From Candidatus Atribacteria bacterium (GTDB taxonomy: Bacteria > Atribacterota > Phoenicimicrobiia > Phoenicimicrobiales > Stramentimicrobiaceae): a stretch of DNA of 54,901 nt. Below the pieces are notes generated by a model, which was not told the DNA's origin, made no database searches, and was given only the letters and a program-made list of their open reading frames with translations. The stretch spans positions 1 to 54,901 of the forward strand of contig JAKQEP010000077.1 in assembly GCA_029556475.1 (NCBI GenBank), read 5' to 3'. The position numbers and the translations under genes are program-made. Shown in pieces: positions 39,468-54,901 of this stretch (positions within the stretch are counted from its first letter, which is position 1; every line of letters begins with the position of its first letter).

Positions 39468-39893
39468 AGTTTAAAAAAAATCAAAATATATATTGACAGC
39501 TGGACTATTAAGTGATAGTGTAACTATTAATTTTAGTATCAATCGTTTAAACAAAATAAGTTCTTTAATTTAAAATAAAAAATTTTATAAATAAGATATA
39601 AGATTTATTAAATTCAGAAAAGTAAGTCTAGATTCTTTTTCAGAGAGCTGAGCGTTGGTGAAAAATCAGCAAAGAGTCTGCTGAATTCCGCCTGAAATAT
39701 TGTCAGAGAGATTGTCAGTTTGTTTCTGACCGTATAAATCGTTAGTAAAAATAAGAGCTATTCAAGTTAGATTATTTTCCATTATTTTTTAAGATATTAT
39801 GTTGACTAGCTGAATTGGGGTGGCACCACGGCATATTTATTCGTCCCCGGTAGTTGTTCAAACTACCGGGGATTTTTTATAAATGAGGAAAGT
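39468..39893. other. Intergenic region containing a T-box leader
   Basis: A TTGACA at 39493-39498 with a weak TAGTGT 17 nt downstream is a possible promoter. The T-box element follows from about 39622. There is no coding frame. Confidence 0.5.
39622..39879 (+). promoter_or_regulatory. T-box riboswitch, probably tRNA-Ser specific
   Basis: Stem I features occur at 39642-39660 (AGAGAG bulge and GGTG loop), and the T-box core GGGTGGCACCACGG at 39818-39831. A terminator hairpin (TCCCCGGTAG / CTACCGGGGA, 39844-39872) ends in a T-run. CGTCCCC overlaps both antiterminator and terminator. The likely specifier loop around 39684-39692 (GAATTCCGC) contains TCC, a serine codon. The T-box bulge TGGC would pair with a tRNA end GCCA, i.e. 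discriminator G, as in tRNA-Ser. It leads a serine-synthesis operon. Confidence 0.85.
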
Positions 39894-40997
39894 GTGGTAG
39901 AAGTTATGAGGAAAAAATTATTTATCCCTGGCCCTATTGAGGTCAAAGCAGATGTTTTAAAAGAGATGTCAAGACCTTTGATTGGTCATAGAAGCAAGGA
40001 AGCATCTGATTTGCAAAGGGGAATAAGTAGCAATTTACAAAAATTAATGTATACCAATAATGAAATTCTGCTATCTACTTCTTCCGGTAGCGGATTAATG
40101 GAAGGAGCAGTCCGTTCCTGTACTAATAAACGTGCAGCCATTTTTTCATGTGGAGCATTTGGCGAGAGATGGTATGATATGGCTTTAGCCAATCAGGTAA
40201 GGGCAGATCTCTTTGAGGTAGAATATGGTAACCCAATAGGTGGTCAGATGGTTAAAAAAGCTCTGGATTGTGGAAAGTATGATTTAGTCACTATCACACA
40301 TAATGAGACATCCACTGGGGTAATGAACCCCTTACCTGAAATAGCTGATGTTTTAAGAGGATATCCTGAAGTAATCTTTTGTGTAGATGCGGTGAGCTCT
40401 TTAGGTGGCGTAAAGATTGCAGTTGACGAGCTGGGCATAGATATATGTATTACCTCCAGTCAGAAATGTATCGGTTTACCGCCGGGTTTATCATTATGCT
40501 CTTTCTCGCAGAAAGCGGTGGAGGCAGCAAGAGGTGTTAAGTATAGGGGTGTATATTTTGATTTGTTAGGGTTATATGAATATAAGATAAAAAGGGATTT
40601 TCAATATCCTTTTACACCTTCTCTCTCACACATGTTTGCTCTGGATAGCCAGCTGGACTCCATAATTAAAGAAGGTCTGGACAATCGTTTTAGAAGACAT
40701 AAGATGATGGCAGAGAGAGTGCAAAGATGGGCTAAAGATAACTTTGCTCTATTTCCCCAAGAACAGTTTGCTTCCCCAACTGTAACCTGTATTAAGAATA
40801 CTCGTAATTTAAATATAGCCGGATTAAACAGAGAACTTGGTGAGGTCGGTTTTGTAATATCCAATGGATATGGCAAATTGGAAAATAAGACTTTTCGTAT
40901 TGCTCATATGGGCGATATGACTTTAGAAGAGATAGAGGGGTTATTATCAGTAATTGATAATCTGTTAAGCTCAGGAGGTATACAAATTTATGCTTAA
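39894..40997 (+). CDS. Class V aminotransferase (SerC-type, serine-pyruvate aminotransferase family)
   Basis: A 367-residue PLP aminotransferase of the alanine-glyoxylate/serine-pyruvate group. Marks are KKLFIPGPIEVKADVLKEM, STSSGSGLMEGAVRS, HNETSTGVMNP, FCVDAVSSLGG and the PLP-lysine SSQKCIGLPPG. The gene follows a serine T-box and precedes serA, so it most likely transaminates 3-phosphohydroxypyruvate, a role this subfamily fills in several anaerobes. The start is the GTG close to AGGAAAG; an ATG at 39906 is an alternative. It overlaps serA by 8 nt. Confidence 0.85.
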   Translation: MVEVMRKKLFIPGPIEVKADVLKEMSRPLIGHRSKEASDLQRGISSNLQKLMYTNNEILLSTSSGSGLMEGAVRSCTNKRAAIFSCGAFGERWYDMALANQVRADLFEVEYGNPIGGQMVKKALDCGKYDLVTITHNETSTGVMNPLPEIADVLRGYPEVIFCVDAVSSLGGVKIAVDELGIDICITSSQKCIGLPPGLSLCSFSQKAVEAARGVKYRGVYFDLLGLYEYKIKRDFQYPFTPSLSHMFALDSQLDSIIKEGLDNRFRRHKMMAERVQRWAKDNFALFPQEQFASPTVTCIKNTRNLNIAGLNRELGEVGFVISNGYGKLENKTFRIAHMGDMTLEEIEGLLSVIDNLLSSGGIQIYA

Positions 40998-41934
40998 GAT
41001 ATTAATTAAAGATGAGATAGATCCTTTGGTGGTAGAGGAATTGAAGAAAAGAAAGTTTTTAGTTCAAGAAGGACAAAATGGGAAAGAAGTGTTCTTTAAG
41101 CAAGTACAGCAGAACGAGATACTCATAGTTCGCTCAGCAACAAGAGTCACTAAGGAATTGATAGATTCTGCTTTGGAAACGGGTCTACTCAAGGTAATCA
41201 TTAGAGCAGGGGTGGGAGTTGATAATATTGATGTAAGTTATGCCCGAAGCAGAGGCATAGAGGTCTTCAATACACCTGAAGCCAGTAGCGAGTCTGTGGC
41301 AGAGCTCGCCCTGGCATATATCTTTGCATTAGCTCGCAAGCTGGTTTCAGCAAGCCTAACTATGCGGCAGGGAGAGTGGAATAAGAAAAAATTTTTAGGC
41401 ATGGAATTAGCTGGGAAAACACTGGGCATTATAGGAATGGGACGTATTGGTCAAATCCTGGCTAAAAAAGCCAGTGCTCTGGGTATGAGAATTATCTATT
41501 GTGATATTAGGACACTGGAGCAAATAGATAGTGACTGGCGATCTCTTCCTTTCTCTGAAGTTTTAAAACAGTCGGATTTTATTTCGCTACATGCCTCCTC
41601 TGAGGGAAATAACGGTTATTTGATAGATGAGCCACAATTTAGGATGATGAAAAAAAATGCTTTCCTGATTAATACTGCCCGGGGTAGGCTAGTTAATGAA
41701 GATGCCTTGTTAGATGCTCTCAATAACAATGTGATAGCAGGTGCTGGTATAGATGTTTATTGTCAGGAACCGTGCAATAATATTGCTCTGTTACAGCATG
41801 ACAGGATATTTGCTACTCCACATATCGGGGCATCTACCGGGGAGGCACAATACAAGATTGGTCAGGAGATTCTTCAACTTGTAGAAGAGTATCAGAAAAA
41901 GAAGATAGCAGGGGGAAGATATGGTATACATTAA
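40990..41934 (+). CDS. serA: D-3-phosphoglycerate dehydrogenase (short form)
   Basis: A 314-residue NAD-dependent D-2-hydroxyacid dehydrogenase without the C-terminal ACT domain. Marks are RSATRVTKELID, IIRAGVGVDNID, the dinucleotide-binding GIIGMGRIGQILAKKA, NTARGRLVNEDALLDAL and the catalytic His in TPHIGASTGEAQ. The lack of an ACT domain implies no direct serine feedback, in line with control by the upstream T-box. It starts 8 nt inside the aminotransferase gene and ends 14 nt inside the DUF1015 gene, so all three are translated together. Confidence 0.92.
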   Translation: MLKILIKDEIDPLVVEELKKRKFLVQEGQNGKEVFFKQVQQNEILIVRSATRVTKELIDSALETGLLKVIIRAGVGVDNIDVSYARSRGIEVFNTPEASSESVAELALAYIFALARKLVSASLTMRQGEWNKKKFLGMELAGKTLGIIGMGRIGQILAKKASALGMRIIYCDIRTLEQIDSDWRSLPFSEVLKQSDFISLHASSEGNNGYLIDEPQFRMMKKNAFLINTARGRLVNEDALLDALNNNVIAGAGIDVYCQEPCNNIALLQHDRIFATPHIGASTGEAQYKIGQEILQLVEEYQKKKIAGGRYGIH

Positions 41935-43189
41935 ACCATTCAGGGCTTTAAGGCCAAAAGAAGAACTGGTTTCGAAAGTAAATTCTCCACCCTATGATAT
42001 TATCAGTAAAGAAGAAGCGGAATTAGTTATTGGATATAATCCCTATTCTTTTTTGAAGGTGGTTAAGCCGGAAGCGGCTATTAAAAAGGTTGGAGATATT
42101 ACAAATTATCAACTTGCGGAGGTAGCTGCCAGAAATCTACAGGAAATGATCAGGCAGGAAATCTTCTTACAAGATAAAGAGGAATATTTCTATCTTTACA
42201 GCCAGAGCAATGAAATATATCAAAGGATGGGGCTGGTAGTTTGTTTATCAGCAGAAGATTATCTTAAAGGAATTATAAAAAAACATGAAAATATCAATAC
42301 AGGAACCTATCAACAGAGAGTCAACCATATTATGAAAACTAAAGCCCATACTGGTTGTATTTTAGTTCTTTATAAGAGCAATGATGGGATAGAAGAATTG
42401 TTGAAACAAGAGGCTGGTAGCAAAAAACCAATATATGAATTTGAATCTGATGATGGAATGAAAAATTGCTGCTGGCAGATTCAGGAGAAGGAGATTATTA
42501 TTTCTCTGATAAAAGCCTTTCAGGATATTCCCAGTCTTTACATTGCTGATGGACATCATAGGACTGCTGCGGCAGTAGAGGTAGCTCAATTACTGAAAGC
42601 TCAACAGAAAAAAGGTGAAGATAAAGAAAAAAAGGTAATCGAAGAATACATGTATTTTCCAGCAGTGCTAATACCAGATAATCAAATTCATATTTCTGCC
42701 TACCATCGAGTAGTGAGAATACCTCTTGATTTTAATAAAGATTATTTTATCAACCAGTTAGCACAGATATTTAAAATTGAAAAGATTTCCCCCAATCACC
42801 CCTTTTTACCAGTCAAAAAACATGAATTTGGTATGAATATATTCGGGCAATGGTATAGGTTATTAGTAAAAGAGGGAATTTTACATAAAGAAAAAAGGGA
42901 TATTACCAGTAGACTGGATGTATCTATCTTACAGGAGCTGGTATTGTATCCCATATTGGGAATTAAATATCCTCAACAAAACAATATAATTGAATTTATA
43001 GGTGGAGTTAATTCCTTGCCAAAAATCGAAGAAAGAATCAGGCAAGGAGCCGTCATTGTATTTACTCTGTTCCCTACCTTAATTGAAGATGTTATAGAGA
43101 TTTCTGAAATGGAAAAAATTATGCCACCCAAGTCGACCTGGTTTACACCAAAACTGAGAAGTGGTATTTTCGTCCACTATTTTGGCTAG
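41921..43189 (+). CDS. DUF1015 family protein
   Basis: A 422-residue protein whose start, MVYIKPFRALRPKEELVSKV followed by NSPPYDII, is typical of DUF1015. The conserved motif ADGHHRTAAAVE (D210-R214) recalls the DGHxR loop of ParB/Srx-type kinases such as the free-serine kinase SerK. The family is often beside serA. Here it overlaps serA by 14 nt behind a serine T-box. A role in serine or phosphoserine metabolism is therefore suggested by context, but no reaction has been established from sequence. Confidence 0.82.
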   Translation: MVYIKPFRALRPKEELVSKVNSPPYDIISKEEAELVIGYNPYSFLKVVKPEAAIKKVGDITNYQLAEVAARNLQEMIRQEIFLQDKEEYFYLYSQSNEIYQRMGLVVCLSAEDYLKGIIKKHENINTGTYQQRVNHIMKTKAHTGCILVLYKSNDGIEELLKQEAGSKKPIYEFESDDGMKNCCWQIQEKEIIISLIKAFQDIPSLYIADGHHRTAAAVEVAQLLKAQQKKGEDKEKKVIEEYMYFPAVLIPDNQIHISAYHRVVRIPLDFNKDYFINQLAQIFKIEKISPNHPFLPVKKHEFGMNIFGQWYRLLVKEGILHKEKRDITSRLDVSILQELVLYPILGIKYPQQNNIIEFIGGVNSLPKIEERIRQGAVIVFTLFPTLIEDVIEISEMEKIMPPKSTWFTPKLRSGIFVHYFG

Positions 43190-54789: not shown

Positions 54790-54813
54790 CCTCACTTTTT
54801 ATCTAAAGTGAGG
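54790..54813. other. Perfect 9-bp hairpin overlapping the riboswitch 5' strand
   Basis: CCTCACTTT-TTATCT-AAAGTGAGG is a perfect stem with a 6-nt loop. Its right arm is the 5' strand expected to form P1 of the lysine riboswitch. It could compete with P1 folding, or be a simple transcript-end element. Confidence 0.55.
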
Positions 54814-54901
54814 TAGAGGCGCGAACGATCAAGAGTACTGATAGGGAGCCCTGAGTAGCATTGAACTATCAAAAAAGGGATCTTCGCCGAAGTCTCAAGA
54901 G
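54805..54901 (+). promoter_or_regulatory. Lysine riboswitch (L-box), truncated by window end
   Basis: The conserved core is visible: AGAGGCGCGAAC (about 54815-54826), AAGAGTA (54831-54837), then GGGA and GCCGAAG (54886-54892). The order and wording match the L-box. The 3' half and the regulated gene lie beyond the window; a lysine transport or biosynthesis gene is expected. Confidence 0.85.

Follow-up and report, generated by a model that had tools for sequence, protein, structure and literature searches.

Hundreds of sequenced bacteria (Enterococcus, Clostridium and Roseburia included) possess the first two genes of serine biosynthesis but lack a recognisable phosphatase for phosphoserine, with automated tools either labelling them auxotrophs or leaving a gap in the pathway; which protein, then, carries out the last step? 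The missing phosphatase has already been stated as an open problem in several papers: SerA and SerC occur in 450 gut genomes in which none of four phosphatase types is present (PMC9026213), serine is dispensable for the growth of C. perfringens and E. faecalis, in which no good SerB has been found (PMC7311316), and Roseburia displays the same missing-phosphatase gap (PMC7478625). The present analysis concerns an operon within a stretch of 54,901 nucleotides from a Candidatus Atribacteria bacterium (contig JAKQEP010000077.1; hereafter the window), in which a tRNA-Ser T-box leader precedes genes for an aminotransferase presumed to be of the SerC type, a short SerA and a DUF1015 protein with the predicted fold of free serine kinases. 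We give this DUF1015 protein an even chance of being the enzyme of the last biosynthetic step, i.e. the conversion of phosphoserine to serine; having a candidate with a serine-kinase fold in the same operon makes the serine gap testable, and if the assignment is true, DUF1015 gains a function and the ParB-like fold a new role. Anyone who views the gene context can see the neighbourhood link, and T-boxes of this kind are already known; what is new here is the prediction that DUF1015 is a variant of the free-serine-kinase kind. No paper joining DUF1015 with serine was found in the open literature, which was the extent of the search.

An AlphaFold2 model of the DUF1015 protein, built on a 61-sequence alignment, reached a pLDDT of 94.2 and a pTM of 0.92. 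Foldseek comparison of this model with the PDB returned nine entries at E <= 0.001 (E 5e-8 to 7e-6), all of them free serine kinases or a close homologue, including SerK 5X0B and its mutants, the Pyrococcus protein 1VK1 and SbnI (5UJE, 6NR6 and 5UJD); TM by target for the SerK/SbnI matches was 0.49-0.59, and the next fold match lay at E 0.065. Additionally, hhalign aligned the DUF1015 profile with SerK (using a probe sequence nearly identical to PDB 1VK1 and 5X0B) at P 3.5e-5 and a probability of 72%, as against 0.49 for a reversed-profile control, pairing DGHHR with the DGHHR of SerK and MPPKSTW with SerK YSPKTTR. The ADGHHR sequence encoded at 42545-42562 had originally been read as reminiscent of SerK, a hint that was borne out by the fold match, the profile-profile match with its reversed control and the conservation of the motifs. 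Searches with phmmer and hmmsearch against PDB sequences retrieved zero relatives, and the homology of DUF1015 to SerK therefore rests on the fold and the profile-profile comparison; a search of viral structures with the model returned nothing. The protein matched PF06245 with 287.4 bits (cut-off 25.8), and neither Pfam nor NCBIfam gave it a HAD match, so that it does not belong with the HAD-type SerB (TIGR00338), to which it is unrelated in sequence and comparable in its presumed pathway position. On our best reading, DUF1015 is a bacterial protein of large size related to the free serine kinases SerK and SbnI, on a ParB-like fold.

The likeness to SerK (Thermococcus TK0378, PDB 5X0B; Pyrococcus homologue 1VK1) covers the fold (Foldseek E 5e-8), the DGHHR motif and, at the C-terminus, a motif resembling SPKTT, whereas the proteins differ in length (242 amino acids in SerK versus 422 in DUF1015). 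The extra length lies mostly before DGHHR, and within it D26, E32, Y91, Y93, H122, E123 and R133 are invariant in the alignment. The hhalign alignment stops short of the region of the SerK catalytic Glu30; DUF1015 residues 14/15 vary, while D26 and E32 are invariant, and the Glu30 position may, as read here, not be conserved. SbnI similarly shares the fold (E 1e-6), but is part of staphyloferrin synthesis, a Staphylococcus siderophore pathway, rather than of a serCA operon, and DUF1015 differs from SerK in being located in serCA operons of bacteria that lack SerB.

Two DUF1015 subfamilies were distinguished, one linked to serCA and carrying MPPKSTWFEPK, the second carrying MPQKSTxFYPK; treatment of DUF1015 as a single group was rejected since pooling both subfamilies hid the SerB pattern in Bacteroidota. 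MPPKSTWFEPK was exact in 77 of the 79 named loci, and differed by one letter in the remaining two. Nearby serA and/or serC genes on the same strand were present at 44 of these loci (both genes at 30), in the orders C-A-DUF, DUF-A-C, A-DUF-C and DUF-C-A and with either of two SerC types, and the linkage recurs in several phyla. Within the order to which the window belongs (families f1 and f2), DUF1015 follows serA at each of the 13 loci for which upstream sequence exists, and is preceded by serC as well where the contig extends far enough; 32 of the phylum's 34 genomes contain DUF1015. Furthermore, public annotation gives the same serCA-DUF1015 linkage in Enterococcus raffinosus, Listeria monocytogenes, Bacteroides finegoldii and Parabacteroides distasonis. 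The second subfamily has the Pfam family and DGHHR in common with the first, but none of the loci viewed places it next to serA/serC; elsewhere in the phylum, in other families (L051-L055, L059, L060), its neighbours are genes for a RACo-like activator, a protein of the OMPdecase/HUMPS family, a SIS protein and, often, an aldolase of the DeoC family, and a role in sugar-phosphate metabolism is possible.

In keeping with the original prediction, in which no dedicated SerB was visible at this locus, no above-cut-off match to TIGR00338 was present in the window's own genome (84% complete). Similarly, none of the 34 genomes of the phylum (in which weak matches lie mostly in open reading frames of P-type-ATPase size) and none of the 48 genomes behind the named loci contained SerB above the cut-off. 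G030, a genome of the same genus that is 98% complete, has neither DUF1015 nor SerB above the cut-off. Among 247 Lactobacillales genomes, DUF1015 was detected in 80, SerB in 31 and both in none; each of the 80 genomes with DUF1015 has serC with the space of one gene between them (852-1631 bp), and within the 111 serC-positive genomes SerB was found in 0/80 with DUF1015 versus 11/31 without it (Fisher p 2e-7, a descriptive value). Across 218 Bacteroidota genomes the DUF1015 profile scores were bimodal, and SerB was present in 5/106 genomes with serCA-type DUF1015 versus 58/112 without it (51/77 with the other type, 7/35 with neither). The gene for SerB shares operons with serA in other bacteria (PMC9026213); SerB is mostly, although not always, absent where the serCA-linked subfamily is present. 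The idea that the five Bacteroidota exceptions are degenerate copies was considered, and no rule was drawn: those viewed (L178, L179, L199-L201) are without several key residues and without serCA neighbours, but similar-looking copies (L181, L183) lie in serC-serA-DUF1015 arrangements of SerB-less genomes.

The leader had been read as a tRNA-Ser T-box with specifier TCC and antiterminator bulge TGGC, a reading that stands on the match to RF00230, on the frames of cognate leaders in the own genome and on eight orthologous leaders. The RF00230 match (83 bits, E 1.3e-18 in a 451-base search) covers all 219 model positions; it is absent from the whole-window scan because that scan lists only matches above the gathering score of 93 bits. 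The valS, ileS and pheS T-boxes of the own genome likewise score below 93 bits, and just two of its 13 T-boxes (E <= 1e-11) exceed this value, the downstream genes including, as judged by their translations, leuS, valS, pheS, ileS, ilvB and argC. Folding of the leader RNA, proposed with the original prediction as a check, gave a structure more stable than shuffles (z = -3.7) with a strong terminator at its end, the stem of which (39845-39871) is followed by a T-run; CCCC at 39845-39848 is common to the terminator and antiterminator helices, which thus compete. The specifier frame was settled by the cognate leaders of ileS (GAAA-AUC-A), pheS (GAAU-UUC-A) and valS (GAAA-GUC-A), in whose frame the window reads GAAT-TCC-G, and the specifier is therefore TCC (Ser) and not TTC (Phe). 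The Phe specifier was additionally rejected on the grounds that the seven other orthologous leaders have TCC rather than TTC at that place, TCC followed by A or G being found in all eight (the window, two relatives in the same family, two Clostridium species, Lutispora, Pelosinus and Desulfosporosinus). Similar T-box leaders precede serC/serA/DUF1015 in Clostridium and Lutispora, serA-DUF1015-serC in Pelosinus and serA-DUF1015 in Desulfosporosinus. The bulge fits a discriminator G, and tRNA-Ser(GCT) of the own genome ends in CCGCCA; a pattern search of the own assembly (84% complete) found no tRNA-Ser(GGA).

Ser T-boxes on serA/serC are already known, with a UCC specifier in Clostridium and Desulfitobacterium serine genes (PMC8002221), and this part of the locus is therefore ordinary. 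The known leaders of serA in Paenibacillus (AGC) and of the Clostridium and Desulfitobacterium genes share T-box antitermination of serine genes with the window, the latter two also the UCC specifier, while the window leader comes from a different phylum and controls a three-gene operon ending in DUF1015. A second Ser T-box of the own genome (L004, G000:C121:38379-38598), with GAAG-TCC-G and TGGC, is located upstream of an archease-family open reading frame.

Downstream of the leader, the three open reading frames overlap by 8 and 14 nucleotides, in agreement with the single operon originally proposed. The first had been called a SerC-type aminotransferase; it is a class-V enzyme of another subfamily and no orthologue of SerC1 (17.7 bits against TIGR01364, cut-off 443.6). 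It scored 63.7 bits against the serC_3 model, below the cut-off, and resembles BhcA/PhnW-type models too, also below their cut-offs; its start is possibly the ATG at 39906. A non-canonical type, SerC3, has been predicted for Clostridium, Akkermansia and Brevibacillus on the basis of operon context (PMC9026213), and the window enzyme may be of this type. The second protein, with 314 amino acids, matched TIGR01327 at 298.5 bits (cut-off 454), falling short of the cut-off because positions 1-304 of the 525 in the model are alone present; by its context, it is a short SerA. Coordinates are collected in Table 1.

Table 1. Features of the T-box leader and the serine operon in the window
Feature	Position	Strand	Basis
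T-box leader: Stem I, Stem II/IIA-B region, Stem III, antiterminator	39607..39851	+	RF00230
AGTA side of the specifier-loop E motif	39621..39624	+	alignment with Rfam consensus
AGAGA bulge of Stem I	39642..39646	+	invariant in 8/8 orthologous leaders
Specifier TCC (Ser), followed by a purine	39687..39689	+	own-genome cognate leaders and orthologous leaders
Antiterminator bulge TGGC, pairing with tRNA GCCA	39821..39824	+	sequence, RF00230 alignment
Intrinsic terminator, CCCCGGTAGTT-loop-AACTACCGGGG and T-run	39845..39878	+	sequence, fold
Class-V aminotransferase, presumed phosphoserine aminotransferase of SerC3/SgaA type	39894..40997	+	PF00266 (Aminotran_5), 73 bits
serA, short 3-phosphoglycerate dehydrogenase, 314 aa	40990..41934	+	PF02826/PF00389 (2-Hacid_dh)
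DUF1015 protein with predicted free-serine-kinase fold, 422 aa	41921..43189	+	PF06245, AlphaFold2 model, Foldseek
DGHHR motif, residues 210-214 (SerK D69-R73)	42548..42562	+	hhalign; invariant in 61/61
MPPKSTWF motif, residues 401-408 (SerK YSPKTTRH)	43121..43144	+	hhalign; nearly invariant in 61 sequences

In the mechanism that we propose, the Ser-tRNA T-box would control the operon as one for serine biosynthesis: uncharged tRNA-Ser would pair with TCC and TGGC, allowing the antiterminator to form, and all three proteins of the operon (the SerC-type enzyme, SerA and DUF1015) would consequently be made together. DUF1015 would act on the serine/phosphoserine pair and, in organisms without SerB, would supply the last step. 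As a phosphate ester, phosphoserine cannot usefully drive the formation of ADP or ATP, which would be uphill; a biosynthetic DUF1015 should therefore hydrolyse phosphoserine or transfer its phosphate to inorganic phosphate, so that the acceptor would be water or inorganic phosphate and not ADP or AMP, and a SerK reaction reversed onto AMP is unlikely. A narrower proposal is that the serCA-linked DUF1015 proteins constitute a new phosphoserine-dephosphorylating class on the ParB/SerK fold, which passes the phosphate to inorganic phosphate and conserves it as pyrophosphate; this we regard as improbable, but if it is true, a great many anaerobes do without a hydrolytic phosphatase in making their serine.

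Several observations weigh against the biosynthetic assignment. Neither serA nor serC is nearby in 33 of the 79 named loci, the co-occurrence counts and p-values given above ignore shared descent and are descriptive, and other phosphatases (of the HAD YsaA type, or histidine phosphatases) may be encoded in the own genome. SerK itself runs in the opposite direction, phosphorylating serine with ADP and not with ATP or pyrophosphate (PMC5120207). Strict mutual exclusion of DUF1015 and SerB was rejected, as B. finegoldii TSDC17.2-1.1 and P. distasonis TSDC17.2-1.1 each have serC-serA-DUF1015 together with an annotated serB; in these Bacteroidales, therefore, either the replacement of SerB is not the sole role of DUF1015 everywhere, or one of the two genes is redundant or otherwise employed. 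Additionally, the window family departs from near-invariant residues of the subfamily (Q102R, T125I and N262H, with K129, E130, D132, R364 and G365 lost), and the function may therefore have shifted in this lineage, although D26, H122, E123, R133, DGHHR, R263 and MPPKSTWF are retained in the 5/5 members compared (E32 is K in 2/5). The proposal of DUF1015 as the missing last step consequently stands in part: gene context and the near mutual exclusion with SerB speak for it, while the Bacteroidales with both genes and the predicted uphill course of a reversed SerK reaction do not. Overall, the original prediction is partly supported as an interpretation, and the observation beneath it is confirmed.

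That DUF1015 is instead a true serine kinase like SerK, converting serine to phosphoserine, is rather unlikely, though it would accord directly with the fold and motifs and with the coexistence of DUF1015 and SerB in some Bacteroidales. The phosphoserine would then be returned to 3-phosphoglycerate via reversed SerC and SerA reactions, or would enter a phosphoserine-dependent cysteine route. We take COG4198 to be DUF1015. A glycine riboswitch located upstream of some COG4198 genes (PMC2211319) would also be in keeping with a kinase; in gathering-score Rfam scans of 24 named loci, no such riboswitch was detected in the vicinity of serCA-DUF1015. The serK gene of Desulfurococcales has genes for 3-phosphoglycerate dehydrogenase and an aminotransferase as neighbours, an arrangement that was interpreted as serine assimilation (PMC5120207). 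Conversely, induction by uncharged tRNA-Ser, here and in the related operons, fits synthesis rather than consumption, and a kinase would be futile in a serine-starved cell and would leave the absence of SerB (in the named-locus genomes, Lactobacillales and Bacteroidota) unexplained.

The last step might alternatively be performed by another phosphatase (YsaA-like HAD, histidine-phosphatase type or one not yet known), with DUF1015 merely tracking the operon in an unrelated role. Alternative phosphoserine phosphatases do exist (PMC9026213), and the incompleteness of the own genome and the unlinked DUF1015 loci leave room for such an enzyme; the probability is nevertheless low, since the linkage recurs across several phyla, gene orders and two SerC types, and in 80/80 of the Lactobacillales genomes. 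A non-catalytic, nucleotide- or metabolite-binding regulator of the pathway is improbable: the ParB-like fold does serve nucleoside triphosphate (NTP)-dependent switches, and 'DU1015' fusions were among the 50 candidates of an NTP-binding survey (28/50 purified, with no such protein named among the binders; PMC12704722), but the closest folds are enzymes and not ParB, the C-terminal PKST motif common to SerK is conserved, and a role as an enzyme is suggested by how rarely DUF1015 and SerB occur together.

Other leaders were encountered in the same genome. The T-boxes of two acetolactate synthase genes are directly followed by ykkC-superfamily matches (RF00442, 54-57 bits, cut-off 63; L005 1350-1458 and L008 1762-1879), perhaps representing a tandem of a T-box and a ppGpp-type riboswitch. 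The leuS T-box leader contains a complete tRNA-Ala(GGC) gene (L001 1669-1744) ahead of its antiterminator. Finally, a lysine riboswitch (47 bits) occupies positions 54806-54901 of the window, where it is cut off by the contig end.

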